From positions 1 through 64,000 of the forward strand of contig JASAND010007645.1 of assembly GCA_030248195.1 (NCBI GenBank): a DNA stretch of 64,000 nucleotides, written 5' to 3'. The first letter of the stretch is position 1, and each line of letters opens with the position of its first letter. The notes under the pieces were generated by a model. That model ran no database searches. It worked only from the letters and a program-made list of their open reading frames with translations, and was not told where the DNA came from. Below are positions 651 through 62,404 of the stretch, piece by piece. A program made the translations under genes and the position numbers. This DNA comes from Trissonchulus latispiculum. Its lineage: Eukaryota; Nematoda; Enoplea; Enoplida; Ironidae.

Positions 651-3515
651 TTGCCGAACCAGAGATCGTAGCTGACTCAATTCCCTCCACCCCCAAATCT
701 TTATTATGTCTTTACTTTAATGCTCAGTGCCTTTTGAACAAAATAGACGATCTAATTTTTAAAATTGACTCGGAATCCCCTGATATTTTTTGTATTTCTG
801 AAACGTGGCTTAAACCCGAGGACAAAAATGCCCTTTTTAATGATCTCACCGAATACGTTTTATTTAGATCGGATCGTAGCAACCGTTTACATGGCGGTGT
901 TTTAGCTGGTGTTAAGAGTAGACTGAAGCCCCGGTTGGTCGGGGCTAAAAGTTATGGTGGTTATGTCGAGCTACTTTGGCTCGACATATATCTGTGCTCA
1001 GCGAAACCAATAAGCCTTGGAGTCCTGTATAGGTCGCCTGGCACTCCACTGGAAATAGACCAAAGTTTTGTCGACGATTTTACAAATTTAAGCGGATTCG
1101 GCAGAAAGTAATAAAGATTTTGTTCTGGTAGGTGATTTTAATGTTCCAAATTTATTAACGGAAAATTTTCAAGCCGTAACACCTAGAGATTTTATTTATG
1201 CAGAAATTTTCCATGATTACGGAGTTTCCCAACTTGTTAATGAATCGACCCGTGGGAACAACGTTTTGGACTTGGTTCTTACCACAGATGTTCATCTTGT
1301 ATCACAACTAAAAATATTGGAACCTTTTAGCACCAGTGATCATAATTCGATTGAATTCAACATAAATTTTGCTGTAATTGATACGTAACAGGAAGGTTTG
1401 AAATTGTTTAAGGACTTTCGCTCTGCGGACTATGTGGCATTGACCGCTTTTCTTGATACAATAAATTGGACAAACCTTTTCGATGATTGTTCGAACGTAA
1501 ACGAAGTATGGGACACTTTCTCCAACATACTCGAATATTCAGTAGAACTTTTCGTCCCTAATAGGAAAATTATCAGGAAGCACCCCGTGAATTGGTCGAA
1601 ACAGACCAAGTTTAAATTTAGAACAAAACGTAAGCTGTGGAAGCGTTATAAAAATAGTAGATCGGAAGATGACAAAATTGCCTATAAGAACATTGCTAAG
1701 GAAGCTAAAAAATAAGCTTCGGCTGATGTTTTTAAAGCTGAAGAAAATATTCTTAAGTCAAACTGTAAGCAACGTTTTTTCCGCTTTGCAAATTCAAAGC
1801 TTTCTTCCAAGGCAGCAATACCAACCTTAGAACTAAATGGCGTTGAGGCTATTTCTGACACGGCCAAAGCAGAACTGTTAAATCAGCAGTTTTGTAGCGT
1901 TTTTACTGCAGACAATGGAGAACTGCCTGTCATGAATCAAGTGACAAATAATACTTTAGAAGACGTAACCTTTTCAGAAACTTTGATTTTGAGTCATCTA
2001 AATAAACTACCTGACAAGTTGTCATGTGGCCCAGATGGTTTTTCCGGGTATTTTCTAAAACGCGTTAAACATTCTATTTCAAAACCTTTAGCATACATCT
2101 TTGAGAGAAGTTTTCAGTCAGGCGAATTGCCAAAAAATTGGTTAGTAGGTAAAATTTCACCTATTTATAAACGTAAGGGCGATGTTTCTAAGCCAGTAAA
2201 TTATAGACCTGTAAGTTTAACCGTTGTATGTTGTAAAATTATGGAAAGCATTGTACGAGATGTTCTCTTGGAGTTTTTTCAATTGAATAAACTTTTTTGC
2301 AATCAGCAGCATGGCTTTCTAAAAACGCGGTCTACAGTTACAAATGTTATGAAATCTTTAAAGGACTGGGCAGAAATAGTTTCAGGCGGAAAAGCTGTCC
2401 ACTGTTGTTTTTTAGATTTTGCAAAGGCGTTTGATACAGTATCTCACCAGAAACTGATTTATAAAATCGAAAAATACGGCATTAAAGGAAAACTCCTCAA
2501 ATGGATAGAAGCGTTTCTAGTTAATAGAACTCAGTTTGTTCAAATCGGTAACTGTAGATCGGATCGGGCAAATGTCACTTGCGGGGTACCACAAGGTACA
2601 GTACTAGGTCCTGTTCTCTTTCTTATTTTTATCAATGATCTGGTTAAATGCATCAAGTATAGCAAAATTCTCATATACGCTGACGACGTGAAACTGTACG
2701 TAGGAGTCGACAGAAAATCTCCCTTTAGTCTTGATTTGCAAGATGATCTGACCCGGGTGTACGAGTGGTCTTCTAAATGGCAACTAAATCTTGCCATTAA
2801 AAAGTGTTCTGTTTGTGTTTTTGGAAACCACTCAGTTCCCCCGGTTTATACTATAAATAACGAAGCACTTGCCGTGGAAACTTCGCTTAATGACCTTGGT
2901 TTTAGTATTAGTGGCAACTTTAAATTCAGTGAGCACTGTACAAAAGTTTATCGCAAGGCAATGGCTGTACAGTCTCTCATTTTTCGAGCGTTTAAAACCA
3001 GAACGAAATCTTTTCTTTTAAAGATGTTTACAACTTACGTTAGACCCATCGTCGAATGTGGCACGGAAATCTGGTCACCTTATTTACTAAAAGACATCGA
3101 CCTAATTGAAAATGTTCAAAGAAAATTTACAAAGCGTATTCCGTGTTTAAGAAATCTGCCTTACATGTCGAGGTTACGCGATCTAGGTGTTCAGTCGTTA
3201 GAACATCGAAGAATTCTCTTTGACCTAAATTTGTTATATAAGATTATCCACAAAAAGGTGGATTTAAATTTTGACGACTTATTTTGTTTCGCACCGCCAG
3301 CACCTACACGGAGCCACAGTCTACGCTTAATGCTGCCTCCTAATACAGGCAGAACTTTCTTGCAAAATTTGTTCTTTCATAGGATTATAAGAGCTTGGAA
3401 TACTCTACCAAAAAACGTAGTCGAAGCAAAAAGTCTCAGTGTATTTAATGATCGTCTGGCCAATTTAGATTTAACAAGTTTTCTCAGGGGGCGAGGGTTA
3501 GGTGATCACGATTGA
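647..3515 (+). pseudogene. LINE ORF2: endonuclease plus reverse transcriptase, broken
   Basis: The endonuclease N-terminal part is at 647-1111, with FNAQCLLNK and ISETWL (expected metal and nicking residues). A single-base shift near 1085-1092 moves into a second frame that carries LVGDFNVP and STSDHNSI, the remaining endonuclease motifs. That frame runs to 3515 but has TAA stops at 1386-1388 and 1713-1715. The RT domain (about 1932-3515, 527 codons without a stop) shows NYRPVSL, FLDFAKAFDTV, GVPQGTVLGP and the catalytic IYADDVKLY box, followed by a LINE-type C-terminal region. The RT active-site residues are intact; the endonuclease half is not translatable in one frame. Both TAA codons could derive from CAA by C-to-T change. 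Confidence 0.88.
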
Positions 3516-11948: not shown

Positions 11949-12190
11949 ATTAGCGTAGCCAGAAAAAAATTTCGGAGGGGGGCAAGCTAAAACTTTTCAG
12001 AAATTAGTACTGAAACGGAACCTGTGGAGGACTGTTTAAAGTGCAAGCTGGTATTTTTGAGGTATTTTCGTCGAAAATTAGCTCCGCAGGCGAAATTTTT
12101 TGGAAATATTTATCAGAATTCCTATTTGGTGCTCAAAGTTATCCTTTCGCCTCCGATTTCGGGGGGGGCATGCCCCCCGGCTACGCGCCT
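11949..12190. mobile_element. Short MITE-like element with GCGTAGCC ends
   Basis: ATTAGCGTAGCCAG at the left and CCCCCGGCTACGCGCCTG at the right are imperfect inverted repeats about 240 bases apart. The arms carry GGGGGGCA-type runs. It resembles the CAGTGGCGTAG ends of the element at 7244. No target duplication was recognised. Confidence 0.4.
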
Positions 12191-12989
12191 GGGGGTCGCG
12201 GACCCTCCCCCCAAATCGGCCTTCGGCAATCCGCGCAATCCCGCTTCAAAACTTCGGCGTCTCCGATCAGGGCGGTTTTGCCAATTTTTGACAATTACAC
12301 AGTAGCTGTATAACAATGATTATATTCATTCGAAAGATCTTGCTGAGCTCTACATTTTTATTTTTTAAAGAATCTTTCGAGCTTTTTGCTATCGCGAGAT
12401 ATAGCCGATTTCATTTTTTGGCGTTGAAAACTTCTCATTTTTGCAGAAATCAAATAATCCGCCATTTCTTGAACTACACAGGCCGTAAAATTAAACTACG
12501 GGTGTCAATTTGAAGGTCTCGTCGAGGCCGACTATCCGTGACATTATAATCTTTTAAGTGCTATCCCGTAGGCTGCTATCATAAAAAATATAGTTTTTGC
12601 AAAAACATGACCAACTTTAATCCAGCGACTGTGGAGCATTCACTATGCAAGCTAGAGGATTGCCACTTACTGGACGAGTTTTACACAAAAATACCCAGGG
12701 ACCCTTTTGTAGTTCCCAATTGCTGCTTTTTAGCTAAAGTGGTCGCTTCCCAAACTTGGGAAAAGTAGGCAAAATCCAGGTTGCGCATACATTTTAGCTA
12801 ATTTTTTATAATGAAGAGCGGTTTCATAATAATTGAAAAAGCGTCCCCAGCTATTTGATAGTAGAATCGAATGATGTGGCCAATTACTCACGAAAAAATT
12901 TACTTCAGTCTGCAAAAAATCTGGAAAATTAAATTACTTCGAAAATGCAGTAAACTAATTTTCAAAACCTAAAGCTAGTTTCGTAATAG

Positions 12990-13431
12990 CAAGAGTACAT
13001 AATACATAAGAGTGTGACAAGCGTCACACTCTATGTAATCAGCTCGAGCGCCATGCTCTGCGCGCTAATGGCCCACCCCCCCACAATTGCGTACCTAGTG
13101 GACCCCCCCCGCAAATCAGTACCTAGTACGCAATTGCGTATGTTCACTCGCTGCTGCAATATTCCTTTTATCGGGACCCTCCCCCCGCAAATGCGACCTA
13201 TCATTCGACATTGAAAAGTGGTAGGTCACATTTGCGGGGGGGGGGGGTCCCGATAAATGGAATATTGCAGCAGCGAGTGAACATACGCAATTGCGTACTA
13301 GGTACTGATTTGCGGGGGGGGTCCACTAGGTACGCAATTTGCGGGGGGGCCGTTAGCGCGCAGAGCATGGGTCTCGAGCTGATTACATAGAGTGTGACGC
13401 TTGTCACACTCTTATGTATTATGTACTCTTG
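12990..13431. mobile_element. Foldback element, 442 bp, with 7-bp target duplication
   Basis: Nearly perfect palindrome. Ends are CAAGAGTACATAATACATAA and its complement. The flanks are GTAATAG at 12983-12989 and 13432-13438. Each arm also contains an inner hairpin (GAGTGTGAC..GTCACACTC) and a stretch of C or G run. No coding capacity. A second member lies at 20678-21026 with the same ends and its own 7-bp duplication. Confidence 0.88.
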
Positions 13432-13639
13432 GTAATAGTCATTAAAAAGAGCAAATGTTAAGCTACATTTGGATATAAAAATGGCTTCTTAACTCAAGTA
13501 ATAAGGGTTCAAAGTTGATGTCTCCAAAAGGAATCACCACCTTAAGGTGGTGGCATCCTTTTGTGCAGTGCTTTTGTGGTGATTTTTTGAAACGCTATAA
13601 CTTTCGCAATCTTGGGAGTTGCAAAGAATTTTATACATA

Positions 13640-14207
13640 ATATTTACGGATATACACCTTTCGCACGTCCAACGTCACGATTAGACATTGCGAAGGCCTG
13701 CCATTTCGAAACCAGCAGGTCCAAAAGCTGTTGCTTCTGCTCTGCACCAACAGCAGCATCACCAGTTTGAGCTTCTTGGCGTATGTGATCAGTGACAGCA
13801 TCACCAGAAGACGACGACCCCTTAGTCTCCACATCGCCACATGTCGTAACGTGATGCTTCGACTGAAAGGAATCTGGTTGCTCAATCCAGCCGCTTATTA
13901 TAGACTTGTGTACTTTCTTTGGCTCCGAGGACCAATTCATGGTCTCCACTGGGACCACTTTGTTAGCGCGGAAACCAATGCTCGTGCCGTCAAAGGCCTA
14001 TTCACTTTCGGCATATTGTCTTTAGGTTCGAAAGGTAGACAGACGCTTCATCGAGATCGTCACCAGAATCAACGTGGCAATTGATTATCCTTCGCGTGCG
14101 AGCAGGAATTGTTTCGGTATGCACCAAATTTACCGCAACTTCACTCGCAATGCACAGACAGGATCAGGATTATCACAAACCACTGTCGGCTCATCGTTAA
14201 GTCCAAG
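13640..14207 (-). pseudogene. Pol fragment: linker between protease and RT, truncated
   Basis: The minus strand continues from the protease past a TAG (near 14205) into a region with IPARTRRIINCHV and then, in another frame, QQLLDLLVSKWQAFAMSNRD. The last resembles the segment just before the RT fingers of Ty3/Gypsy-type Pol, where a conserved F..S..D.G pattern occurs. The frame ends at 13644 or 13631 depending on frame, before any RT catalytic box. At least two frame breaks are present. The RT itself is missing. Confidence 0.6.
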
Positions 14208-14690
14208 CTATTTTCGAATCGCTTCGGCGGTGCCCCCTCGCTCCGGAAGGTAAAACCCCAGTATCATGTCATAAGCGTAGCAATCCGGCAAAAGATAAAC
14301 ACGATGATGAACCGTGTGTTTTCCAACGGCGATATCAATGAGTACAGAACCCAAATGCTGAAGGTTTTCCTCGTTTAAAACAGTAGCATCAATACCAACT
14401 GGTTGAATGTTGAGCTGCAGAGGTTTCAAAAGAATCTCCTTTACAAGAGTTATTTCTGAACCAGTGCCAAGCAAGGCACAGGTTCTAATTTCGTCATTCA
14501 GGCAAACAGTTGTTGTGAATTTGGCATTGTGAGTAGAAGATACCGATACTTTTCTTGGCGAATGATTAGCTGTATCCGATGCTGATTCCTGACCTGCAAC
14601 GCCAGGTCGCGATGACTGAGACAAATAGAGATTAGTATTCGTCACCTTTACCTGGTTAGAGGAATTGATGGGTTTCCATCGTTAGAAAGC
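14208..14690 (-). pseudogene. Retropepsin-like protease domain, catalytic Asp lost
   Basis: Frame open on the minus strand from about 14690 to 14208. The active-site loop reads ALLGTGSEITLV where aspartic proteases have D in place of the first G (D-T/S-G). This implies an Asp-to-Gly change, consistent with one A-to-G substitution, and predicts an inactive enzyme. Further on, HHRVYLLPDCYAYDMILGFY fits the second half, with the hydrophobic ILG element typical of retropepsins. It starts about 10 bases after the helicase frame ends, in a different frame. In intact Gypsy-type elements the protease directly follows the zinc knuckle, so its place here defines where the helicase lies. Confidence 0.72.
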
Positions 14691-14697
14691 AGATCTG

Positions 14698-17000
14698 TCA
14701 GCGATCAGGACATCCTGAGCATTGCAGTAGTAAGTTTCGAACAGTTCGAAATAACGGGGCTGCTTTGCAAAGTTGATTTACGTCAGCAATTAATACTTCT
14801 GCCCGTTGTGCCCTGGTCGTCGCTACATTCAAGCGGCGCTTGTCCTGTAGAAAGTCAGCAATGCGATCATCGGCGCGAACGAAACTAACCACAATGAAGT
14901 ACTTTTCCCCACCTTGGAAACGGTCAACGGTACTGATTTTCAACCCTCTTTGCAAAAGGTGACGAAGCTTCTTTAGCAGTAGTCGTTCTTGTGCTTTATA
15001 GGGAGTAATAATGCCAATCGATGACGGTTCTATCTGTGCTATTCCCATTAAAAATTGGACTACTTCAACAACAGTTTCAGCCTCGATGGGGTTTAGGTAG
15101 CTTGTACCATTCTTTTCCTGAAAACGGTGAGATTGAAAATTCCACAGCATTAACGCTTTACCAGAAGGAAGCTGATTGAAAAACATTTTTTTAGTTTTCC
15201 GTAATAGAAGGGGTGATTACTGTATCCTGCCACGATCTCAGGCATGCGATACTGCTCATTCAACAGGAGCGGAGTGAGTTATTTGCTTTGATAACATGCT
15301 CCATGATTGAAAGAGCCAATCTTTGCTGCCGGGCATCCGGACTCAAAACGGTTGGTCGCAATTGTTTCAGATCTCCAACGAGTACCACCCTGGACTTCCA
15401 ACAAGTAGTTAATGGAATAAGTGCTTCAGGTACCATGCACTGACCAGCTTCGTCCAAAATTACTGTGCTGTAAATCTGACCAGCAACCACAGCTTGGCCC
15501 ACTTCAACGCAGGTAGTACACACAATAGACGCAGTAGACAGTACAGTCCTGCTAAGTTCTTTGAAATTCGACTTGTACAATCGTAGTTGGCTCAGCGACA
15601 ACTTATTCTGGAGAAACCGTTTATACATATCACGGAAGTCTGGACCGCCGGCGTCTACTACGTAATTACATAGCGACACTTCGACCAGTGGTCCACTGAC
15701 GTAAGGTTCTATCATTTCTGAGTGAACTCGTACGAGCCCTTTTGTCCCAAAAATAGTTTTGAGATGCATGGTTATGACATCGACTGCAGCGTTCGAGGAC
15801 GCACAGACCAATATTTTCCCCTCCGGTTCGGTACGAAGCTCTTTGACAAGATTATCAGCTGTGAATGTTTTCCCAGTACCAGGCGGACCCTGTATCACTG
15901 CAGCATGGCCCTTGATCGCAGCCACCACAGCATCCCCTCTGCGAAGGATTGAGTGAAGAAGAAGGAGCGAAAGTTGGCTGACTGCGCAAACCAGGAGCGT
16001 GCAGAGTTTCGAATAATCGAAGCACTGTTGTAGCTTCATACTCAGCTACGTCGAGAGTTGCAAAAGCATCCACTGCGGCCCTATGTCGTCGAAAAGAGTC
16101 AAAATCAGGGTTTGGCATAACAGCTACCTTGAAAATCTGCCCTAAGACATTTTGAATGCAACTCCACTCACACTCTTCTTGGAAAATGTCCTCTTCGTCA
16201 TTACTGTCAGCCGAAAATCCAAATAAGATTAACTCGACGTCTACTTGTTCGCCATTTGTATGTTTATGTAAGACATAGGCTCCAATTGTTTCATCCTCGT
16301 CGTCTGGAACACTCAGTTGAAGCCTGTCGTTTACACCAACTTCTGGACAGAATAGTTGAGCAAATTTCCGAGACCCGGAAAAATCCCATTCAACATCAAC
16401 TAAAACTTCAGAATTCCAGGCCCGCGAGGTTTGCTCGTCCTGCTCTAAAGTCAGTAGATTAGCATATCTATTGGCCAACTGCAATCTATCTAAGGATTCC
16501 TTTTGGTTCGATAGAGCGGCGACGGCGGGATGACGATCGGCCGGCCGTAGTCGCTCATAGGAATCAAGTACTGCTGGATCTTGCAAATGGGATACCAAGG
16601 TATCCAAGGACACCAACACCTCTTGCAAATCTGGTAAATCCTTGCAGTCTGAATTTCGATAAAGAAATTCTGTAAGGCCATTAATGTCAAGAACGGAAAA
16701 CAGATGGCGAAGCATTGACTTACACAATCGACTCCGGGCTGATGTCTCATCGTAGCCGATTCCTTCTTTCCAATTCCCATCAACCTTAAGTCTGGCAACA
16801 AAATGGGCACGGCATCCTTTCCTCTTCTTGAAGCATAACACCTTTATTGTTGCGTCCAAATCAGAATGATTATGTATTCCCATACGGGACAAATAACTTG
16901 CTGCCTCATTTATGCTAAACAAGTCAGTCATAAGCGCGGACGGAGCAGTGCCCTCTCGAAATCGGAAAGAAAACGAGGTGCCATCTGGTATATTGTTACC
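14698..17000 (-). pseudogene. SF1 (UPF1-like) helicase, copy B, all motifs, frameshifted
   Basis: The minus strand holds a complete set of superfamily-1 helicase motifs: NPSQR (Q motif region), GPPGTGKT (Walker A, near 15862-15892), VILDEAGQ (Walker B, near 15441-15460), VGDLKQLRPTV (motif III), EQYRMP (near 15235-15250), IGIITPYKAQ (motif IV), STVDRFQGGEK (motif V) and RLNVATTRAQ (motif VI). The set and spacing fit the UPF1/SMUBP2/ZNFX1 branch, which unwinds RNA or DNA. Three single-base shifts break the frame: an extra C in the run at 16999-17003, an extra C at 15934-15937 and one near 15270. The N-terminal part (about 16990-16690) contains CRAHFVARL..GIGYDETSAR, which loosely resembles a dsRNA-binding domain. 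The frame ends in a TGA at 14698. Confidence 0.82.
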
Positions 17001-17757
17001 CCCTCGCTGACACCATTCGTACAGAAACGGAGCTCCGTGATTGCCGTCCCCGACCAGAGCCAAAAGTACGTCCACGAGAAACCGTCCACGAATCATCATC
17101 TTTGAGTTTGAAACATTCCTCTTTGCTGTGTCCAGGTTTCCTACAATGGGAACAGAATTTTTGCATAAGTGAATTAGCAGATCCACGCTGATACTGCTTA
17201 GAACCACGCATTTGGAAGTTATTTGTGGTTGGGTTGCCGTTGTGACGTCGCCGATTTTGGTAGAGCTCTTGCTCGAGCTGTGGAACTCTTTCCTGTAACG
17301 ACGCCTGTTCTCCTGATTTGGTTGCTACTGTAGCAACAGTTTTTGGGGTTTCTGCTGGTTGAGCTTTAATAGAATCAGAACCCACATTTTTCATACTACT
17401 ACTTTTGCTGACACCAGCAACTTGCCAAGATGTAGGCAAATCAAAAAGTACGGTCGTTTGTTCTTGTTCAGGAACAAAAGCGGAAGCTCCAAGAGCCGCC
17501 TTAAACACCTGACGTTCATTGAATATTTTCTCAGCCATCTGAACACTCTCACTGTATGTGCTAGGTTCCCGCCGCATTGTTTCCCACATGAGCCAGGGTT
17601 CTATCCCATGCAAAAAGCAACGCCGCACTTGAGTGTTCAGAACGTCCTCTGTAACCTCGCCAAAAGCGCTTTTCGCCAGCTCTAGCATTTCATGACTGCA
17701 TTGCATGACACTTTCATCGGGTTTTTGCTTGCGCGTGCTCAAGAGAAGAGCAAACAT
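15594..17757 (-). repeat. Tandem duplication, unit B (partner 17758-19920)
   Basis: The segment matches 17758-19920 base for base apart from a small number of substitutions and two single-C insertions. The offset is 2165 bases at the low end and 2163 at the high end, which accounts for exactly those two insertions. The junction at 17757/17758 joins the middle of the helicase to the 5' part of gag. Confidence 0.95.
16996..17757 (-). pseudogene. Gag (capsid and zinc knuckle), copy B
   Basis: Capsid-like segment beginning FALLLSTRKQKPDESVMQCS, followed by a Gln/Glu-rich linker and a CCHC knuckle CSHCRKPGHSKEEC. It ends in an Arg/Ser/Gly-rich tail. All four zinc ligands are present in this copy. 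The frame passes toward the helicase but is thrown off by the extra C at 16999-17003. The 5' part of gag is missing because the tandem duplication junction lies at 17757. Confidence 0.78.
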
Positions 17758-19920
17758 CAGCGACTACTTATTCTGGAGAAACCGTTTATACATATCACGG
17801 AAGTCTGGACCGCCGGCGTCTACTACGTAATTACATAGCGACACTTCGACCAGTGGTCCACTGACGTAAGGTTCTATCATTTCTGAGTGAACTCGTACGA
17901 GCCCTTTTGTCCCAAAAATAGTTTTGAGATGCATGGTTATGACATCGACTGCAGCGTTCGAGGACGCACAGACCAATATTTTCCCCTCCGGTTCGGCACG
18001 AAGCTCTTTGACAAGATTAGCAGCTGTGAATGTTTTCCCAGTACCAGGCGGACCCTGTATCACTGCAGCATGGCCCTTGATCGCAGCCACCACAGCATCC
18101 CTCTGCGAAGGATTGAGTGAAGAAGAAGGAGCGAAAGTTGGCTGACTGCGCAAACCAGGAGCGTGCAGAGTTTCGAATAATCGAAGCACTGTTGTAGCTT
18201 CATACTCAGCTACGTCGAGAGTTGCAAAAGCATCCACTGCGGCCCTATGTCGTCGAAAAGAGTCAAAATCAGGGTTTGGCATAACAGCTACCTTGAAAAT
18301 CTGCCCTAAGACATTTTGAATGCAACTCCACTCACACTCTTCTTGGAAAATGTCCTCTTCGTCATTACTGTCAGCCGAAAATCCAAATAAGATTAACTCG
18401 ACGTCTACTTGTTCGCCATTTGTATGTTTATGTAAGACATAGGCTCCAATTGTTTCATCCTCGTCGTCTGGAACACTCAGTTGAAGCCTGTCGTTTACAC
18501 CAACTTCTGGACAGAATAGTTGAGCAAATTTCCGAGACCCGGAAAAATCCCATTCAACATCAACTAAAACTTCAGAATTCCAGGCCCGCGAGGTTTGCTC
18601 GTCCTGCTCTAAAGTCAGTAGATTAGCATATCTATTGGCCAACTGCAATCTATCTAAGGATTCCTTTTGGTTCGATAGAGCGGCGACGGCGGGATGACGA
18701 TCGGCCGGCCGTAGTCGCTCATAGGAATCAAGTACTGCTGGATCTTGCAAATGGGATACCAAGGTATCCAAGGACACCAACACTTCTTGCAAATCTGGTA
18801 AATCCTTGCAGTCTGAATTTCGATAAAGAAATTCTGTAAGGCCATTAATGTCAAGAACGGAAAACAGATGGCGAAGCATTGACTTACACAATCGACTCCG
18901 GGCTGATGTCTCATCGTAGCCGATTCCTTCTTTCCAATTCCCATCAACCTTAAGTCTGGCAACAAAATGGGCACGGCATCCTTTCCTCTTCTTGAAGCAT
19001 AACACCTTTATTGTTGCGTCCAAATCAGAATGATTATGTATTCCCATACGGGACAAATAACTTGCTGCCTCATTTATGCTAAACAAGTCAGTCATAAGCG
19101 CGGACGGAGCAGTGCCCTCTCGAAATCGGAAAGAAAACGAGGTGCCATCTGGTATATTGTTACCCCTCGCTGACACCATTCGTACAGAAACGGAGCTCCG
19201 TGATTGCCGTCCCCGACCAGAGCCAAAAGTACGTCCACGAGAAACCGTCCACGAATCATCATCTTTGAGTTTGAAACATTCCTCTTTGCTGTGTCCAGGT
19301 TTCCTAAAATGGGAACAGAATTTTTGCATAAGTGAATTAGCAGATCCACGCTGATACTGCTTAGAACCACGCATTTGGAAGTTATTTGTGGTTGGGTTGC
19401 CGTTGTGACGTCGCCGATTTTGGTAGAGCTCTTGCTCGAGCTGTGGAACTCTTTCCTGTAACGACGCCTGTTCTCCTGATTCGGTTGCTACTGTAGCAAC
19501 AGTTTTTGGGGTTTCTGCTGGTTGAGCTTTAATAGAATCAGAACCCACATTTTTCATACTACTACTTTTGCTGACACCAGCAACTTGCCAAGATGTAGGC
19601 AAATCAAAAAGTACGGTCGTTTGTTCTTGTTCAGGAACAAAAGCGGAAGCTCCAAGAGCCGCCTTAAACACCTGACGTTCATTGAATATTTTCTCAGCCA
19701 TCTGAACACTCTCACTGTATGTGCTAGGTTCCCGCCGCATTGTTTCCCACATGAGCCAGGGTTCTATCCCATGCAAAAAGCAACGCCGCACTTGAGTGTT
19801 CAGAACGTCCTCTGTAACCTCGCCAAAAGCGCTTTTCGCCAGCTCTAGCATTTCATGACTGCATTGCATGACACTTTCACCGGGTTTTTGCTTGCGCGTG
19901 CTCAAGAGAAGAGCAAACAT
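17758..19920 (-). repeat. Tandem duplication, unit A (partner 15594-17757)
   Basis: Near-identical to unit B. Runs of four C at 19163-19166 and three C near 18099 keep the reading frame open, while unit B has one more C in each. Confidence 0.95.
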
Positions 19921-19935
19921 ATCAGTGTTATGCAA
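17764..19935 (-). CDS. Gag-helicase fusion frame, copy A (open, truncated)
   Basis: A continuous 723-codon frame. Order: capsid-like region (residues about 1-150), basic/Gln-rich linker, zinc knuckle (207-220), Arg/Ser/Gly-rich tail (to about 256), helicase N-terminal domain with a dsRNA-binding-like patch (about 290-345), acidic region (about 500-530), Q-motif region NPSQR, Walker A GPPGTGKT at 628-635, motif Ia-like ASSNAAVDV. It stops at residue 723, just after the duplication junction, so motifs II-VI are missing. The knuckle reads CSHFRKPGHSKEEC: the second zinc Cys is Phe, probably disabling it. The first codon is inside gag; an ATG occurs at residue 6, but the true start lies upstream. 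The frame shows that gag and helicase were fused in frame before the duplication. It is unlikely to be functional alone. Confidence 0.75.
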   Translation of the reverse strand: MHNTDMFALLLSTRKQKPGESVMQCSHEMLELAKSAFGEVTEDVLNTQVRRCFLHGIEPWLMWETMRREPSTYSESVQMAEKIFNERQVFKAALGASAFVPEQEQTTVLFDLPTSWQVAGVSKSSSMKNVGSDSIKAQPAETPKTVATVATESGEQASLQERVPQLEQELYQNRRRHNGNPTTNNFQMRGSKQYQRGSANSLMQKFCSHFRKPGHSKEECFKLKDDDSWTVSRGRTFGSGRGRQSRSSVSVRMVSARGNNIPDGTSFSFRFREGTAPSALMTDLFSINEAASYLSRMGIHNHSDLDATIKVLCFKKRKGCRAHFVARLKVDGNWKEGIGYDETSARSRLCKSMLRHLFSVLDINGLTEFLYRNSDCKDLPDLQEVLVSLDTLVSHLQDPAVLDSYERLRPADRHPAVAALSNQKESLDRLQLANRYANLLTLEQDEQTSRAWNSEVLVDVEWDFSGSRKFAQLFCPEVGVNDRLQLSVPDDEDETIGAYVLHKHTNGEQVDVELILFGFSADSNDEEDIFQEECEWSCIQNVLGQIFKVAVMPNPDFDSFRRHRAAVDAFATLDVAEYEATTVLRLFETLHAPGLRSQPTFAPSSSLNPSQRDAVVAAIKGHAAVIQGPPGTGKTFTAANLVKELRAEPEGKILVCASSNAAVDVITMHLKTIFGTKGLVRVHSEMIEPYVSGPLVEVSLCNYVVDAGGPDFRDMYKRFLQNK

Positions 19936-20276
19936 CTGACATTTGGCTGCTAACTCGGATACTAATAACTTATATGTACCTTGACTTTAGCATCAAAGGG
20001 CTGGGTCCTCTAAATAGCCTACTAGCTTACGAGTTTTATCCGGTTCTGACCTTAACGTGACTTAACGCTTGTGCTTCAAACAGCCGAAGCCATTTTTGAA
20101 ACGTTATTCGTTTTTCGGAGGTCTATATTTTCAGCCTCCAAAGCTGCTAAGCGTCGTTCAATTGCTCTCAAATCTCGCTCAACTGTTGGATCTGGCCCAC
20201 TCATTTCGAAAAAAGGATTATTTAAGCAGCTATGCAGCTGTTGAAATTGAAATGGTTTCAAAACAGAAACCTGCAA
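19936..20276 (-). pseudogene. Gag N-terminal remnant with coiled-coil segment
   Basis: Upstream of copy A on the minus strand, VSELAAKCQL continues the capsid frame, but stops occur beyond it (near 19980-20000). At 20276-20076 a separate frame contains TVERDLRAIERRLAALEAEN, a heptad-like segment suited to a short coiled coil. This is probably the start region of gag, now split by frame breaks. No LTR or primer-binding site was recognised upstream. Confidence 0.5.
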
Positions 20277-20677
20277 TCAAATTAAAATCTTTAAGCAGCT
20301 ATGCAGCTGTCCACCTTCGAGTTTCGAGAATGAAACCAAAAATGATATTTTGAGCCAGACACAAGATGAAAGAATACATGTGTTCTACCCTGGTTATGAT
20401 TTCGAGCAAGAAATCAGAACAGTTGAACGAAATAATACACAACTTAAAGGTATTCATTAGCCCAGAAGCTAATTACAGCAGCGGCTTTCCATTTTCGGAA
20501 AGGAATTCTGTTGATCACTTGAAACTGTATTAAAGATAGAATATAGCAGAGACTCCAAAAAGCAGGAAAGTTGCAACTATATTCACGAAAAGAATATAGC
20601 ACACTCCAAATAGTTCACAGGTGGATCCTCCAGTTAGTTCCTGTGAAACGTTAAACTAACAACCGGTTTACTTTGAG
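20277..20677. other. Gene-free stretch with a short direct repeat
   Basis: TTAAGCAGCTATGCAGCTGT occurs at 20222-20241 and again at 20291-20310. Its CAGCT..AGCTG core is itself an inverted repeat. Nothing else is recognised up to the foldback element. Confidence 0.5.
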
Positions 20678-21026
20678 CAAGAGTACATAATATAAGAGTG
20701 TGCCACTAGCTACACTCTCTGTTATCAGAGCAAAAACTATGCTCTGCTCGCTAACGGCCCACCCACCCCCGCCAATTAGACCCTTCACTTCAATGAATTT
20801 TGTGCGCTATGTTTGTGTTCTAAAGCTCGAAGCAGGCACAAGATTCGCGCACGCACTGCTTGTGTTTTCGAGCTTAAGCACATAAACATAGAGCGAGTGA
20901 GCGTACCCCCGTTTCGACTAGGTACTGATTTGCGGGGGGGGGCGGGCCGTTAGCGAGCAGAGCATAGTTTTTGCTCTGATAACATAGAATGTGCCTAGTG
21001 GCACACTCTTATATTATGTACTCTTG
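20678..21026. mobile_element. Foldback element, 349 bp, with 7-bp target duplication
   Basis: Ends CAAGAGTACATAATATAAGA and complement, as in the element at 12990. It is flanked by CTTTGAG at 20671-20677 and 21027-21033. The arms include AGAGTGTGCC, ATGCTCTGCTCGCTAACGGCC and a C/G run. The centre differs from the other member. Confidence 0.87.
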
Positions 21027-21033
21027 CTTTGAG

Positions 21034-21170
21034 CAACAATAAATATGCGGTTAAAAAGTAGAAAAATCGAAATTTTTTGGTTTTTGCCCTTTTTCCTCTT
21101 TCTCTCCTTAATTTTTCCTACCTTCGAATCGCGACGGGGGGCGCCGCCCCCCCCCCTGGATCCGCCCCTG
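21034..21170. mobile_element. hAT-type MITE, right-hand fragment
   Basis: Matches the right third of the intact MITE at 23016-23401 and ends in CCTGGATCCGCCCCTG followed by CTCCTGGG. The left part has been lost. It marks the start of the 2.2-kb tandem unit. Confidence 0.8.
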
Positions 21171-21186
21171 CTCCTGGGGTAAACCT

Positions 21187-21442
21187 TTACCTTTTACCAG
21201 GGCTCTGATGGCTGCTGCACTCATGGGTCGCATGGGTCCAGAGGTTACAGTCGGTACAGAGGATGGATGATTGGGACCTCCGGACAGCCAGGCCGCAAGT
21301 GGCATACGGCCAGCGGGGCCTGGGTGCAGGTTGAGGATCGGGGTTCCATTCTACATGTCTCCGTGATTCCACTCCACTCGATAAGCCGCTCCACTGCGGC
21401 AAAGAGGGATTCTTTGGAACGGTTAAAATTAAAGCCGTTCAA
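21187..21442 (-). pseudogene. LINE PHD-like zinc-finger fragment, copy 1
   Basis: The minus-strand frame contains ATCGLAVRRSQSSILCTDC followed by NLWTHATHEC, giving C..C, C-x2-C, W-x2-H-x3-C spacing. PHD-type fingers of this form are found at the N-terminus of ORF2 in several CR1/L2/Jockey-like LINEs. The frame is broken upstream. The same fragment occurs at 23418-23673 and 27818-28073. Confidence 0.6.
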
Positions 21443-21734
21443 AGGTAAAGGTAAAATTAAAGTTCAAAGGTCAAATTAAAACCGGTTAAAATTAAACTTC
21501 CCTAAAATCTTCAAAAGAAGCAATGTAGTTGTACTATACAACGTCTTGGCGCCTGCGGCGCTTTTTTACCTCAATTTTTCGCGCCTGCGGCACTATGCAA
21601 TTCATTTCAATTATATTAAATTTAATTAAACAAACAGTTAACAAACTTAACAAACAAGTGCAACATTACTGCACTGCACGCCTAACATCAAACAGCCCAT
21701 CCCATCCCAGCCCAATTTATGTTACAATTTTTTT

Positions 21735-21850
21735 ATGACTGACAGAATTAAATGCTTTTTTAACATCCAAAAATATAACATCAACATAATCACCCCTGTC
21801 AATTGCCGATCCCCAATCAAAAGTAGCATTAATCAATCTGAAATCAATTA
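21735..21850 (-). pseudogene. LINE RT fragment (domain A), copy 1
   Basis: On the minus strand the frame reads DYVDVIFLDVKKAFNSVSH, the RT domain A with the first catalytic Asp. It belongs with the motif 0-2 piece at 22228-22465. The two are separated by an insertion carrying an RTE-type 3' end and the 41-bp repeats. Confidence 0.75.
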
Positions 21851-21851
21851 T

Positions 21852-21960
21852 GAGGGGAGTAGAAGAATCCGCGTCCGGTTGGAGATCTCCTTCTTGCTGT
21901 GGTCGATGCTGCTGGTGTTTATCCTTTCACGTGCTCCCTGGGGCGCCTGACCAACGCGCC
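21852..21960 (+). mobile_element. RTE-type LINE 3' end fragment, copy 1
   Basis: Contains GAAGAATCCGCGTCCGGTTG, TGGAGATCTCCTTCTTGCTG and TGCTCCCTGGGGCGCCTGAC. The same blocks follow the RTE-like ORF at 47047-47080 and 47689-48009, which identifies the fragment as that element's 3' UTR. Confidence 0.65.
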
Positions 21961-21999
21961 CCAGGGTTTCCAACCCACTTTCCAACCCAGTTTTTAAAG

Positions 22000-22232
22000 T
22001 TTGTCTCGCCTGCTGCGCTTTTCTGTCTCGATTTTTATAATTTTCCTCGCCTGCGGCGCTTTTCTAACTCAGTGTTTAAAATTTTTCTCACCTGCGGCGC
22101 TTTTCTGTCTCGATTTTTATAATTTTCCTCGCCTGCGGCGCTTTTCTAACTCAGTGTTTAAAATTTTTCTCACCTGCGGCGCTTTTCTAACTAAATTTTC
22201 AAAATTTTTCGGGCCTTCGGCGCCTTTCTAAC
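22000..22232. repeat. 41-bp tandem repeat, about six units
   Basis: The CCTGCGGCGC (or variant) core starts at 22009, 22050, 22091, 22132, 22173 and 22214, exactly 41 bases apart. Two unit types alternate (CTGTCTCG.. and CTAACTCAG..), giving an 82-base higher-order period. Each core (GCCTGCGGC) is a small hairpin. A second array of the same kind is at 26525-26725. Confidence 0.92.
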
Positions 22233-42085: not shown

Positions 42086-45069
42086 GAGTCCCCCAATGAC
42101 AGCCTTCAGAGGCGCTGCGCAGAGGCTGCGCAGATTTTGTGCGCAAAAGAAAGTCCGTGTCGAGTTTAGTATAATTGGAAAATTTCATCCCCTTAGCACT
42201 TACCGTTAAAAAGTTGCACCCGCTGGCAGTTTATGCCGAACCGGCGATGTTTTTTCGGTGTCTCCGTTTTACCCTCGTATGTCACCTTTTTGTAGCCTCT
42301 TTCATAGAATTTAGCGAAGGGCAGAGACCTATTGCGGTATATCATCAATATATAGGTTACTGACTTTCGATATATGTAGTCGCCGCCGCGCCACAGTGCG
42401 CCGCAGCGCTACAGCGGCGCCACAAAGTCGGTTCTGAACGACGAAATGACTAAAATTATATATGCCTGGGATTAGCTTCTTTCCAGCTCTTTGTGCAAAT
42501 ACAGGCAAGACAAGTCATATATGGTTGATAAGGTCATGTATCCGTATTATGACGTCTGAAGTCGAATTTTTGATATGTTGCGCCACAGCGCCACAGTGGC
42601 CCGCCAAAGTTGGTGAATGTTGGGCCCTTAGTTTTATCGCTTATTTTTCAAGATAGACCTCTCAAATTTTGCATATAAAGGTTTTTGGGGACGGAGAATC
42701 CATTCCCGCCATTCGATTTGCTGCCTGGTTTACCCAAGTTGCTGGGCCGGTTCCACTTGACTGTCTGAGGGGTCACGCCTTAATTCCGCCTACGCCCGTG
42801 TGTGGTCTGTTGCCAGCAGCCTGTGCCAGTGTGTAGCCAGTCCCAAGCCTGGAAAAAGGAGGAGGGTTGCTACCCCGGCCAGGTAGTTGTAGAACTCGCT
42901 AAGATGGCTATGTATCACCATGATTACAAGAATGAACACAAATGCTACGATATCTCCGTCCCTGCGTGGGCGCACCGGGCGCCGGGCGAGAGTAATGATA
43001 CCGGTTGCGAAGCGTTTAAGAATTGCTAATTGGAATGTCCGATCGTTAAATGAAGTAGGAACCCCTGAACTTCTGATCCGTGAACTTTCTCATGCATCAA
43101 TCGGCATTGCTGTCATCAGCGAAGCTCGTTTGCCTGGCAGTGGCAACAGGACTATTTCATTCGAACGTTCTCGATGCCAATTGTATTATTCCGGTTAAGA
43201 CATCAATGCAACACATGGTGTTGCTTTTGCCATACGCAGCGACCTTAATGACTGTGTTGCTTATTTCGAACCGATCCCTAGTCGAATTGCTTTACTAGAA
43301 TTAAACGGTATTGTGCCTTATCGCATCATCGACGTATACGCCCCCACTGATTGCTCACCTACAGCAGCCAAAGATAAATTTTTTACCGACCTACAAACAG
43401 TCATCACCCGTCTAAACAGAAACGGCGTTTGTTTAGTCGTCGGCGACCTAAACGCCGTAGTGGGATCTGTCCGAACCGGATGGGAAACTGCTCTTGGACA
43501 CTATGGGCTAAACCAAATGAATGACAACGGACTCCGTCTATGTTCCTTCGCTCAATATAATAATCTCTCTGTCCTGAACACGTGGTTTAAACATAAACCT
43601 CAACATCATTTGACCTGGGATTCGAACGACCAACGTACGACAAAACAACTCGATTATTTCCTGATTAATCGTCGCTTTGGTCATCTGTGCACGACGTCCG
43701 TGTGAACCGTCTAGCTGACATCGGATCCGACCATCGCTTGGTTATATGTACCATGAAGCTGCGTCTTAAATCGGAACCTCCTCGCCCCCGCTGCAAACGT
43801 TATAATGTATGCGAACTACTGGATCGTAGGAAACGTGAACAATTTGAACTCCAACTGTCCAATCGTTTTTAGCCTCTGTCTGACCCTGACGTCAATATCG
43901 ACGCGTGCTACCAGGATTTCAAATCTGCAATCTCAGATACAATTTCCGTCCTGTCCGATAAAGCGCGAGCGAACAAGACCCTGGATCTCTCCGCATACCC
44001 TGTTGATGAACGCAAAGCAACCAAAAACGTCAACAAGCGCCGGTATAACTATTTGCACCGCGAAATCAACCGTCACCTGAAGGAAGATTGGGAAAAATGG
44101 TGGAACGAAGTTGCTCTAGAAATGGAAAATGCAGCGAATCAAGGCAACTCGCTGAAACTCTTCAACCTAATCAACCAGGTCTCCAAACCCAGAGTGTCCA
44201 TCTCCGAATCTATTCTTAACCAACAGGACGAGTTAATAAAATCGAAAGAAGACAAACTAGATAGGTGGGAGGAGTACTTCGCTGGTCTCCAAAACCGTGA
44301 CGACCCTCTGCTCACCGATCCAACGCTCGACGAACCCAGCCAACCAAATCCGACAATAGACGTCTCTCCCCCAACCTTCGAAGAAATCAGACGCGCAGTA
44401 CGAAGCCTCAAGTCTCGCAAGGCTTGTGGTAGTGACGACATACCCGCTGAAGCCCTCAAGGCTGGCGGGACGGCAATGATCCAAATTCTGTACCGCATAT
44501 TCGAAGCAATTTGGCGTTCTGAGCGTATGCCCGCTGAATGGCTACAAGACGTCATTGTACCTACGCTCAAAAAAACGGACCGCCGCAAATGTTCGAACTA
44601 TCGAGGAATTACGCTGATTTTAATCGTCAGCAAAGTTTTTACTTCCATCATCCGTTCCCGAATCGCCGCAAATCGAGAAATGACTGGGCGTAAAGAACAA
44701 GCGGGATTCCGGCCTGTCCGAGGCTGTAGTGATAACATTTTCAATGTCCGCAGTATCTTCACCAGACGAATACGTTACTGTAAACCCTTCATAGCCGTCT
44801 TTATCGAATTCGCTGTAGCTTTTGACAGTGTTCACCGATCCTCGTTAATGAAGGCACTGTCACACGATGTTGTTCCCACAAAAATAGTTAACCTCATCCG
44901 GGAGCTCTACGGCAGCACGACATGTGCCATCCGCGTCTACAATGAAATCACCGACACCTTTCAAATCCGAACCGGTGTCCGGCAGGGCTGTATTTTATCA
45001 CCTTTGTTATTTAATGTTATTATTAGCTATGGCAGGCTTGGAAGGTGTTTCTTACCGCAGCCACCTTAT

Positions 45070-45426
45070 GGTGATTTCATAGTCCCAGTCGCATCTTGAC
45101 GCGCGTAGACGCACGTCGACGTGCGTAGACGCGCGTCGAAGCGCGTCAACGCGCTACACTGCCATGTCACATTTGGAAGCGTCGACGGACGCGCGTTGAC
45201 GCACGTCGACCCGCGTAGACGCGCGTCGACGCCTCCAAACGTAACATCACGTCCTGGTGCTATGCTAGCACTGAAAGCGTCGACGCGCGTCAACGCGCCC
45301 AATTGTAGCATGCCAGTTTACGCGCATCGACGCACATCGACGCGCGTTGATGCGCGCAAAATGATATTGACGTTTGTAGACGCGCGTCGACGCGCGTACA
45401 CCTGCGTTCGCGACTATGAAGGCACC
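45070..45426. mobile_element. CpG-dense element of ACGCGCGT units inserted in the RT
   Basis: Imperfect inverted ends GGTGATTTCATAGTC and GACTATGAAGGCACC. Between them lie more than a dozen copies or near-copies of ACGCGCGT / GACGCGCGTCGACG in both orientations, broken by three short unique blocks. It interrupts the RTE-like RT between the GVRQGC and YADD boxes. No clear TSD. Confidence 0.7.
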
Positions 45427-55000: not shown

Positions 55001-55019
55001 GTTAGTATGCTACTGTTTT

Positions 55020-56279
55020 ACGTACATATATATTTCAAGTTAAATTTATTTCTTGAAATATATCTTAAAAAGGCGTTTAACTCTTTATCAGTACCTAAGT
55101 TACGACTTCGGTTGGAAGCATATGGTTTTAGAAATAAATTGCTTAAAATTATAATGGCTTTTGTGAGTGGAAGACGACAAAGAGTGCGTATAAATGATTC
55201 TTTTTCCTCTTGGAGTGCTGTAGTTAGTGGTGTTCCCCAAGGCTCTGTCTGTGGACCTACGTTATTCATTATGTATATTAACGAGTTTCTTTGTCAAACT
55301 GATAGTAGTTTATGTTCTGCTTATGCTGACGATGTAAAATTTTATAGTTATGGGGCAGATCGAGGGCATCAACTACAACAAGTTTTAACTGCTTTTTATA
55401 ATTGGGTTAATGAATGGCAACTTAACATAAATGTTAATAAATCCTTTATTGTTAAATTTGGCACTCAAAGAGACCTCCAGTACTACAATTTTGATGGGGA
55501 AATGTTAAATTCGATTGAAGGATGTTCTGATTTAGGAGTTTGGATGTCTGCGGACCTTAAATTTGGCACACGTATTAAAAAGGTCGCAACTAAAGCTATG
55601 TCTACGTTACACTTATTACTACACAATTTTGCAACTACTGACATATCGGTCAAAGTAAAACTGTATGTTGCTTATGTCATACCTGTGTTGTCGTACGGGT
55701 CTGAAATTTGGAATCCACATTTAATTAAGGATATTGAGATTTTGGAAAAGGTGCAGAAGAAATTCTGTTCATCATTTATTGATTTCTCGGACTTATCTTA
55801 TAATGAATGTTGTCGTGAGTTAGGACTGATTAGCCTAGAACTGAGACGCTTGCTAGCTGACCTTGTGTTAACGTATAAAATTATTTTTGGTATGACTGTT
55901 ATTTCGCCTGACTCAATATTCACATTTGCAAATCAGCCGTACAATACTAGAGGGCATTTGTTAAAGCTGGTAGCTCCGAAATTTGCTTTAGATGTTAGAA
56001 AATATTCGTTTGCTTGTAGAGTTGTAGGACCTTGGAATGCACTCCCTGAAAGTGTTGTCCTTAGTAAGGATGTAACTGTTTTCAAAACTTCTCTACTTGA
56101 ATGTAAAACTTTGTTGTCTAGATTTTTGAAAGTTTATGTCTGATATTATATTTTCATTAGTAAAATTTTTCTGTATTTGAAATTTGAATCCTGTTTGTTA
56201 ATTTAGATGATCGTATATATATCTTTGTTGTTATTGCTACTGTGCCGTCGTCTGTTGTTTCTTTTTGGAAATAAACTTT

Positions 56280-56909: not shown

Positions 56910-57719
56910 TATTATTTTAAGACATTATACATTTTAACAAGATTTGAAAATTTCAGACCCACTGAAATGTTGGGTTTTTCAAATTATATAGGTCTTGTGC
57001 TTTTCTGAAATTTTGTTGGAAAGCTGCTGCTGCAGGAAAGGATTTATATATATATATATAGCTGCTATACAGACTCAGGGCTAAATTCGACTGAACTGAA
57101 TCAAAACTTTGTAAAAATTGAAAATGCTAGTTACAAATAAAATTTGAACTCGAATTATTTATAAGTAGATAAATAATTTTCAGCAGCAATGAGATTGGTA
57201 TTTTATTTATTTCTCACGCTCCATAATTTATTTAAGCGGTTTTTTGAACAACTTTTATCGTAAATTGTTCCATGTTTCTATGTAATTGGCATGTCCAAAC
57301 ATTCCAAGAATTCTTTAGATATAATCTAATGAAAATGATATAGTTTTTTCAAGCAAAACTTTGTTAAATAAAGTCATTTGCATCATTTAAACAAAGCGAG
57401 ATTGCTGAAATTCATTAAATAAAATCATTCACAGCATTAAAACATAATCAAAGCCATAGAAAACCCCATAAGCGTTAACAAACTAAAGAACAAAGTTTAA
57501 AAATTTGTATGCATTTTGAAGGCTAGATCCGGATCCGGCCGGATCCAAACTGGAACCTGGTCCGGAGCCGGCAAAATTTTGGATCCGGTCGATCCCTAAT
57601 ATATATACATAAATAATATGCCAAGTTTGCGTTTGTTACCAGTAACTTTATTATTGTGCACGTTCTTTACTTCTGTTCTTTGCGGAATACGTACGTATAT
57701 ACGTTTTTGTGTTTTGCAG
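56318..57719. other. REV1 intron, A/T-rich
   Basis: No gene. It holds a few ATCTATCTGTCTG-type direct repeats (56735-56820), a (TA)n tract (56829-56902) and an A/T-rich tail. Splice acceptor TTTTGTGTTTTGCAG at 57705-57719. Confidence 0.6.
56829..56902. repeat. (TA)n microsatellite
   Basis: About 74 bases of TA repeat in the intron. Confidence 0.95.
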
Positions 57720-58216
57720 CATCAGTGCTGGTCGTCTCCTAAGCGATACAGATTATTTGCTCTATGCTGAGAAATGTCGAATTCCAGCAGGCGGAAAGAT
57801 GGATCAGTTTGTTTGCGATCCGGGAAAAGTTTCAGCAACTCATGCCAGAATGGATGGAACTGATTCAACTTCTCCAGCCAAATCTAGCACGTCTTTGACC
57901 ACGCAGTCCGCTTTTCCAAAAACTGTCAGTCCAAATTTTTTAATGGAATTTTATGCGCATTCTCGGCTGCATTTTATTTCCTGCTTGGCGCAAGACATGA
58001 AGGATTATGTGCATAGAGCACGAAAAAAGGCCCAGCATACAGGGAATTCGGAAACCACTGGCGTAATGAAGATTACAGAATGGATAAACTCAACAAATGC
58101 AAAAGTGTCTTTGCCTACAGAAATTCTGGAAAAAGAACCACTAAAAGTAATCATGCACATTGATATGGATTGCTTCTTCGTTTCGGTGGGAATCCGAGAT
58201 AAACCTCACCTTCGTG
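57720..58216 (+). CDS. REV1: REV1 exon: end of BRCT, linker, N-digit, start of palm
   Basis: 497 bases, entry phase 2, exit phase 1, donor GTAAGT. Order: SISAGRLLSDTDYLLY (end of BRCT), a low-conservation Ser/Thr-rich linker, then FLMEFYAHSRLHFISCLAQD. In REV1 that last segment is the N-digit. Its Arg pairs with incoming dCTP and the next Leu pushes out the template base; both are present (S-R-L-H). Then VIMHIDMDCFFVSVGIRDKP, the start of the palm with the first catalytic Asp pair of Y-family polymerases. All key residues visible here are intact, so the gene is probably functional. Confidence 0.92.
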
Positions 58217-58294
58217 GTAAGTTTTCTACATGTATGTTATGTGCCGATGAGTAGTTCGGACACTTCTGAAAATATCCAGACAGATAAATTCTTA

Positions 58295-62106: not shown

Positions 62107-62145
62107 TAATAATATGTTTGAAGAACCTAGGTTTTGTTTCTTTAG

Positions 62146-62404
62146 GCAAGCCAGTGGTTGTGACACATTCTAAAGGGAAAGGTCCTGCTGCCGCCTCGGC
62201 TTCCTCTGCCACGGAGGGACATGGACACGACTTTGAATCTAGAGCTGAGATAGCTTCTTGTAGCTATGAGGCCCGTTCTTGTGGAGTTTCAAATGGAATG
62301 TATCTGGGTCCTGCTTTGAAACTATGCCCTGACCTAGTTCCGATTCCTTATGATTTTGATGCTTACAAGGATGTGTCCAGGCAGTTCTACGATGTTGTGC
62401 TTAG
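62146..62404 (+). CDS. REV1: REV1 exon: palm and fingers
   Basis: 259 bases, acceptor TTTGTTTCTTTAG, donor GTATAC, entry phase 1 and exit phase 2. It encodes KPVVVTHSKG, a short Ala/Ser-rich insert, SRAEIASCSYEARSCGVSNG and LCPDLVPIPYDFDAYKDVSR. SRAEIASCSYEAR is a strongly conserved REV1 fingers segment. The insert before it is shorter than in vertebrate REV1. Confidence 0.92.

Follow-up and report, generated by a model that had tools for sequence, protein, structure and literature searches.

A superfamily 1 (SF1) helicase frame between the zinc knuckle and the protease of a Ty3/Gypsy-type retrotransposon raises the question whether it is a gene of the element or a host sequence joined to it by accident. 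We address this question for contig JASAND010007645.1 of the nematode Trissonchulus latispiculum (assembly GCA_030248195.1), of which positions 1 to 64,000 were analysed; this 64,000-nt stretch is called the window, all positions are counted in it, and the element lies on its minus strand. A sequence-only reading of the window had proposed that the element acquired an RNA helicase within its Gag or Gag-Pol protein. From comparison with relatives in the same genome we conclude, with high confidence, that a UPF1-like SF1B helicase, with a double-stranded RNA-binding domain (dsRBD) ahead of it, entered a Ty3/Gypsy lineage in frame between Gag and protease and has been transmitted vertically since.

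A helicase-bearing Ty3/Gypsy family

The genome searched was the one assembly to which the window belongs (733.8 Mb, 21,732 contigs). With the AAA_12 profile the best 150 of 221 candidates were scored, and 33 helicase loci were examined, namely 29 of the top 30 matches and four chosen lower ones. A Gypsy protease lay beside the helicase at 30 of the 33 loci, which bears out the earlier doubt about a simple processed-pseudogene insertion; gag was present in addition at 25 loci and gag plus reverse transcriptase (RT) at 19, as counted in the stretches fetched, which at C12093, C122 and C13847 do not reach gag. The recurring order was gag, dsRBD, UPF1-like helicase, protease and RT. No element domains were found in the fetched stretch at the remaining three loci, C9857, C18579 (ZNFX1-type, with a ZNFX1 domain) and C21083. 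The last of these (L027) holds an intronless helicase frame that extends over 1,290 codons of the stretch; its N-terminus matches GDSL weakly, and it has no Gypsy domains. Many of the AAA_12 matches that score about 50-70 bits, in frames near 1,500 codons, may belong with this type.

Intact relatives encode Gag, dsRBD, helicase and protease as one polyprotein. In C16919, gag to integrase form a single open frame of 2,403 codons between long terminal repeats (LTRs) of 187 bp that are 100% identical, and a purine-rich tract precedes the 3' LTR. In C13543, C4797, C20727, C13847 (near-identical to C13543) and C16240, the RT begins after the protease in a +1 frame that overlaps the preceding one; Gag, helicase and protease thereby remain encoded as a unit. 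The order protease, RT, RNase H, integrase was found in C16919 and C13543. Five elements were inspected at the end of the first frame (L010, L018, L020, L004 and L007, of which two are near-identical), and in all five the last bases of the protease frame are ATTTGA or ATTTAG, within a +1 overlap with the RT frame, a possible site of programmed +1 frameshifting.

LTR pieces of C13543 and C4797 are 100% identical and cut by contig ends, and the LTRs of C20727 (165 bp, 98.8% identity) are flanked by the 4-bp repeat TTTA, the only clear target-site repeat. LTRs were also found in C13505 (131 bp, 96.9%), C1417 (175 columns, 82.9%) and C16676 (just 43 bp); they were looked for and not found in C10692. 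Both LTR ends are inside the fetched stretch in C16919, C20727 and C1417, and GGAGGTT follows the 5' LTR in four elements, on the putative primer-binding site (PBS) side. Since LTR identities range from 82.9% to 100%, the copies range from very recent to old. In C13847 (L004), C2446 (L038) and C7936 (L048), sequence of a third open reading frame (ORF3) follows the protease, or a stub of the RT, at a short distance; these are internal-deletion derivatives.

Gag was recognised by Retrotrans_gag just over the cut-off in C13543 (2.6e-5) and C20727 (3.0e-5), and by Ty3_capsid below the cut-off in other members (6e-5 to 3e-4); for C16919, PNMA at 0.026 was the sole gag-type match among the 25 Pfam matches listed. 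A CCHC knuckle was found in 17 of 17 members tried, using a pattern that also allows tyrosine in first place, as in C9015.

Two parts of the elements were overlooked by the sequence-only reading, the dsRBD before the helicase and ORF3. A profile of the knuckle-helicase region, built from 13 sequences including the window, matched ADAR2 (1.1e-5), ILF3 (1.1e-3) and Staufen in PDB, and 14 of its 15 PDB matches up to E 10 were dsRBD proteins; for a larger, overlapping alignment it was 13 of 15, with ADAR2 at 7.2e-5. Taken singly, one of the 13 members reached Pfam dsrm (E 0.029). A single-sequence AlphaFold model of the region has the order alpha-beta-beta-beta-alpha at very low confidence (mean predicted local distance difference test, pLDDT, 43). 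ORF3, of about 410 amino acids (aa), lies 3' of the integrase in complete elements (L010:1135-2367, L018:4234-5457, L022:808-2034, L020:4219-5439 and L016:4282-5460). It consists of a weak NADAR part followed by an SGNH/GDSL-like part, with Pfam matches that all fall below the cut-off (NADAR in three of five members, best 1.2e-5; GDSL in one of five, 1.3e-4), and it had no PDB match.

Among 23 element helicase cores, selected by motifs I and VI, pattern searches found the SF1B motifs I in 23, DExx in 22, GDxxQL in 23, QYRM in 22, V in 19 and VI in 23. Pfam gave AAA_11 1e-42 and AAA_12 8e-55 against 3e-4 for Viral_helicase1 in L004, and 2e-39 and 3e-52 against 1e-6 in L007; judged by these profiles, the elements do not carry a core of the Viral_helicase1 type, of plus-RNA virus origin, seen in insect retrotransposons. 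The best PDB matches of the C16240 helicase were UPF1 (215 and 199 bits), followed by SEN1 (158), SMUBP2 (142), DNA2 (137) and ZNFX1 (95), and the identity to UPF1 is about one third, estimated by eye from the alignment. UPF1_1B_dom was not among the Pfam matches listed (up to 25 each) for the window or its relatives, and no PDB profile match was obtained for this region, where a divergent barrel is possible.

Selection on the helicase was assessed from stop-free frames above a length limit, decayed copies being left out. Between near-copies, the ratio of nonsynonymous to synonymous substitution (dN/dS) was 0.23 for RecA1 (8 pairs, 1,781 codons), 0.43 for RecA2 and 0.26 for the helicase N-terminal region, and 0.23, 0.42 and 0.30 for gag, protease and RT. 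Between lineages, the proportions of differing synonymous and nonsynonymous RecA1 sites (pS/pN) were 0.77/0.15 for C13543-C9947, 0.89/0.11 for C4797-C1417, 0.86/0.14 for C16240-C20727 and 0.87/0.32 for C16919-C2385; single pairs are cited because the pooled line mixes in the near-copy pairs C20727-C9208 and C7405-C7936. At this distance the synonymous sites are saturated, and 11-32% of the nonsynonymous sites differ. These comparisons of coding sequence show that the helicase has been kept under selection in the element lineage. Full-length copies with LTRs, the order gag-helicase-protease and purifying selection on the helicase, which the earlier reading had named as support for an element gene, are thus all present in the same genome.

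The window copy

The element in the window is a dead, 3'-truncated and internally duplicated copy of this lineage. Its parts, all on the minus strand, are as follows.

20576..20690, minus strand: remnant of the 5' LTR end and leader, cut on its outer side by a miniature inverted-repeat transposable element (MITE); found by blastn, with the PBS-like stretch and outer limit set by eye
19987..20204, minus strand: Gag N-terminus, with a coiled-coil start resembling C16919, split over several frames; three-frame translation compared by eye with C16919
17764..19986, minus strand: copy A, an open frame of 740 codons with Gag capsid, degenerate knuckle, dsRBD and the N-terminal part of the helicase up to early RecA1
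18859..19110, minus strand: dsRBD of copy A, from the profile of 13 sequences; limits by eye from the alignment
17757..19920, minus strand: first unit of a 2,164-bp tandem duplication
15592..17757, minus strand: the other unit of this duplication; identity between the two units 99.6%
16996..17763, minus strand: Gag capsid and CCHC knuckle of copy B
15855..17324, minus strand: frame of copy B with dsRBD and helicase N-terminal region
15260..16045, minus strand: RecA1 of the copy B helicase, motifs I to III; Pfam AAA_11 E 7.7e-39, best PDB match UPF1, 88 bits
14698..15216, minus strand: RecA2 of the copy B helicase, C-terminal motifs and stop codon; Pfam AAA_12 E 4.8e-34, best PDB match UPF1, 72 bits
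14208..14681, minus strand: retropepsin-like protease, active-site Asp lost; Pfam 0.0031, below cut-off, and similarity to C16919
13644..14207, minus strand: pre-RT linker, frameshifted; by eye

The sequence-only reading had described copies A and B as two copies. Two separate element copies in the window were rejected, as A and B are the units of one tandem duplication and differ by 7 substitutions and 2 one-base indels. That gag, a CCHC knuckle and a UPF1-like helicase share one frame in copy A is right as far as the 740-codon frame goes, but its knuckle lacks one cysteine and the frame ends within RecA1, so that it holds only the N-terminal half of the helicase, without most of RecA1 and without RecA2. 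For copy B (14208-17763), the described succession of helicase, retropepsin and pre-RT linker on one strand holds, but the copy is frameshifted: RecA1 and RecA2 lie in separate frames, and the stop codon is followed by 16 bases and then the protease frame.

The Gag of the window region is 75% identical to that of C16919 over 142 aa and the protease 57% over 109 aa, and positions 20576-20636 match the LTR-end/leader of C16919 weakly (75%, E 3e-5, blastn). Among 99 matches, obtained by scoring 91 of 148 candidates, the window copy falls into a small subfamily: across the greater part of the helicase N-terminal half, identity is 91-93% to C3849, C10247, C10763 and C19910; it is 75-85% for parts of C10336, C4200 and C12483, and 48% for C16919. 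The recognisable element ends near 13641, with nothing beyond the pre-RT linker, and a search of 12001-22000, the only part of the window covered, gave no match to Gypsy RT. RT frames tested elsewhere in the window (1716-3512, 43873-45096 and 55001-56140) match RVT_1 of Pfam and look by eye like those of long interspersed nuclear elements (LINEs).

By a count made by eye, frame lesions in 13641-20204 seem rarer in the gag-helicase part when it is compared with the N-terminus of Gag and with the protease-linker part. The Gypsy remnant is bracketed, by eye, by two palindromes at 13010-13450 and 20690-21060; both are MITE-like and belong to one family, with ends AAGAGTACATAATA, and each has a flanking repeat of its own. 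Further along, 62058-62489 is a host REV1 exon (IMS 2e-17; best PDB match REV1, 1.1e-19), and 57646-58254 resembles a further REV1 exon by eye, without a Pfam match.

Origin and descent of the helicase

In a helicase tree of 39 rows, which exclude MOV10, SEN1, ZNFX1, DNA2 and viral helicases, one clade (support 100/99) unites the 23 element helicases with C9857, and UPF1 comes next (87/87). The tree that had been suggested earlier was in this way built and has UPF1 as the next neighbour, with ZNFX1, one of the proteins suggested for it, missing from its rows. The host's own UPF1 gene is found in part on C7478, with introns between exons that are 60-97% identical to human UPF1; the zinc-binding CH domain of UPF1 (UPF1_Zn_bind) gave 8 matches on 3 contigs in the genome search, with C7478 among these contigs and no examined element locus on any of them. 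Because this domain is on no examined element locus and host UPF1 is intron-split, with exons 60-97% identical to the human protein, the element helicase is not an orthologue of UPF1 in nonsense-mediated decay, and it has not been copied recently from the host gene. The case in which the helicase exists solely as a host gene is likewise not what was found: host UPF1 is a separate, intron-split gene, and 30 of 33 helicase loci have a protease alongside.

For the RT, a tree was built of 39 rows, of which 20 had been chosen from the 150 that were scored among 5,134 candidates; it sets 22 helicase elements, together with C12772 and C13739, apart from 15 others (95/90). Among these 15, the upstream part was opened for C8717 and C17503, and the other 13 are absent from the AAA_12 list (best 150 of 221). 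Counted by label, the tree requires 3 changes and the helicase elements are not strictly one group, as 'other' had been the label given to C13739 and C12772. C12772 has kept gag and lost the helicase and half of the protease; C13739 has a truncated protease and no gag or helicase match in the fetched stretch. We read both from their sequences as deletion derivatives and not as the clean, helicase-free junctions which the sequence-only reading had named as a refuting case.

Helicase distances correlate with those of gag (r 0.95, 20 copies), protease (0.97, 21 copies) and RT (0.80, 16 copies), and with one copy per lineage the values are 0.93 for gag and 0.96 for protease. One helicase capture followed by vertical retention is the likeliest history, being the simplest reading of the helicase and RT trees.

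Several points weigh against this history or against the domain assignments connected with it. In the helicase tree, UPF1 is the nearest outgroup among the groups sampled. C9857 is nested in the element clade (91/71), and the elements alone were grouped in just 10% of 200 bootstrap trees; therefore an origin from a host or free-standing helicase is possible. This locus (L005/L029) is a solo helicase frame of 730 codons with no gag, protease, RT or dsRBD found in 5.25 kb, and possibly a donor, an exapted gene or a fragment. When each lineage is represented by a single copy, helicase and RT distances correlate at just 0.63 (11 copies), a value equalled or exceeded in 39 of 2,000 permutations. 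C13505 is placed with C16919 by its helicase (100/93) and with the C13543 group by its RT (99/96), placements which agree only if the trees are rooted differently. The helicase N-terminal (1B) region has no sequence match to UPF1, the AlphaFold models are poor (mean pLDDT 43 and 50), and a fold search with the poorer one gave nothing useful. Finally, all evidence comes from one genome, and the function of the helicase is a predicted role only.

Possible functions and comparison with known systems

LTR retroelements make use of RNA helicases of their hosts, such as RNA helicase A and DDX proteins, and are restricted by UPF1-like ones (MOV10). The domain order described above suggests an element that brings its own RNA-remodelling machine, and a lineage with its own dsRBD-helicase beside Gag makes a helicase role in packaging, reverse transcription or silencing escape testable. 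In intact members, a Gag-dsRBD-helicase-protease polyprotein would be translated, with RT, RNase H and integrase either continuing its frame, as in C16919, or following in a +1 frame that overlaps it. Because it is linked to Gag, the helicase would be made at the Gag level, one per Gag precursor, and would enter particles together with the genomic RNA. The protease would then free it from the polyprotein, and the freed helicase could remodel structured or double-stranded RNA, with genomic RNA remodelling, primer annealing, strand displacement and removal of dsRNA feeding silencing as candidate roles. Host dsRBD helicases, e.g. RNA helicase A, aid retroviruses in packaging and reverse transcription; by this analogy, help in RNA packaging and reverse transcription is the likeliest function of the element helicase, with a chance that comes close to even. 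We consider the arguments evenly balanced for the fuller account, in which a cellular UPF1-type helicase with a dsRBD was captured once at the base of the lineage and kept by selection as a protein of the particle, linked to Gag and acting to remodel element RNA; no earlier retrotransposon would then have had an SF1B helicase of its own that is directed at dsRNA, and this one would belong to a group with an exchangeable slot between Gag and protease.

A somewhat less probable function, though one to be taken seriously, is suppression of RNA silencing or dsRNA sensing, in which the dsRBD would bind antisense-derived dsRNA and the helicase unwind or sequester it. The fusion of a dsRBD to the helicase fits this, and viral-type helicases of insect retrotransposons reportedly had a weak silencing-suppressor effect in a plant system (PMC6338049), but the linkage at the Gag level fits a particle role at least equally. 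That the helicase mimics UPF1 and competes with the host protein, so that element RNA escapes nonsense-mediated decay, is unlikely: UPF1 is the nearest sampled helicase, but mimicry in RNA decay is made less likely by the absence of the UPF2-binding zinc domain, found on 3 contigs only and at none of the examined element loci, and the element protein also carries a dsRBD and, beyond the RecA domains, shows no match in sequence with UPF1. Some other function of the helicase is similarly improbable. Domestication of the gag-helicase part by the host after the death of the element is very unlikely; to the eye the gag-helicase frames of the window look less broken than their flanks, and C9857 is a solo helicase frame, but RecA1 and RecA2 are for the most part missing from copy A, copy B contains frameshifts, and the copies that are intact, elsewhere in the genome, are complete elements whose LTRs are identical. 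A chance insertion confined to the window, in which a gag fragment struck a host UPF1-like gene or processed copy, would fit the decayed, truncated and rearranged state of this copy but is barely credible, as the same neighbours recur at 30 of 33 helicase loci, several with intact frames and LTRs, and the element helicase is about one third identical to UPF1 while the intron-split host gene has exons 60-97% identical to the human protein; a processed pseudogene or chance junction is ruled out by the intact family in the same genome.

The literature searched, which did not cover subscription journals and Repbase, held no UPF1-type helicase in a Gypsy Gag-Pol. A protein-database search with the helicase (best 7,988 candidates scored) gave 41 matches, led by fungal UPF1 and IGHMBP2-type proteins, and searches with the N-terminal region and Gag gave no match at 1e-3. 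A viral contig collection held no relative of the element, and the matches listed from a wider genome contig collection included one bacterial helicase and no other.

With Ty3/Gypsy elements (Metaviridae), the family shares the Gag capsid and knuckle, the order of retropepsin, RT, RNase H and integrase, and the LTRs with a purine-rich tract; it differs in the dsRBD and UPF1-like helicase added between Gag and protease and in ORF3 after the integrase. With UPF1 (RENT1/NAM7) the helicase shares the RecA1/RecA2 motifs and its best PDB match, but it is without the CH zinc domain, has a dsRBD instead, and is intronless and inside a polyprotein. It is an example of a cellular RNA-surveillance-type enzyme becoming part of a transposon.

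The gap between Gag and protease holds other modules in sister elements. In C8717 (L050), a fusion-glycoprotein-like env (2.2e-10) is in frame between the two, and in C17503 (L051) the gap is taken in frame by NADAR (1.4e-22) and an env-like part (1e-4, below cut-off). Because a helicase is found there in one clade and env or NADAR plus an env-like part in these sisters, the gap looks like an exchangeable slot in the group, which would point to modular evolution of Gag-Pol. In the giant Burro Gypsy elements of planarians, the modules between Gag and protease are env, BCL2, ankyrin, MATH, BIR and others (PMC6431247), a likeness in foreign polyprotein modules that extends to the env-like parts in the same gap of C8717 and C17503. 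The available text of that paper names a midasin-like AAA ATPase and no helicase; Burro modules other than env were not among the Pfam matches listed for our elements, and C16919, at about 9.3 kb from LTR to LTR, is below the giant size. That Gypsy elements pass directly from knuckle to protease, as the sequence-only reading had held, is therefore not general.

Uptake of NADAR by Gypsy elements is shared with Ectocarpus, where the domain is placed at the Pol N-terminus (PMC12477816); here it is seen weakly in ORF3 and, in C17503, between gag and env. GDSL-like ORF3s are described for rotifer LTR elements (PMC5408684). SF1 helicases have been reported from insect retrotransposons, where they are described as derived from plus-RNA viruses and as located in LINE ORFs or Ty1/Copia-type fusions (Lazareva 2015, PMC4686597; Morozov 2017, PMC5563155; PMC6338049). 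As described there, they resemble the present case in being fused to retrotransposon proteins with their motifs retained, but they are viral-type, whereas the helicase described here is UPF1-type, belongs to a Gypsy element and stands with a dsRBD between Gag and protease.

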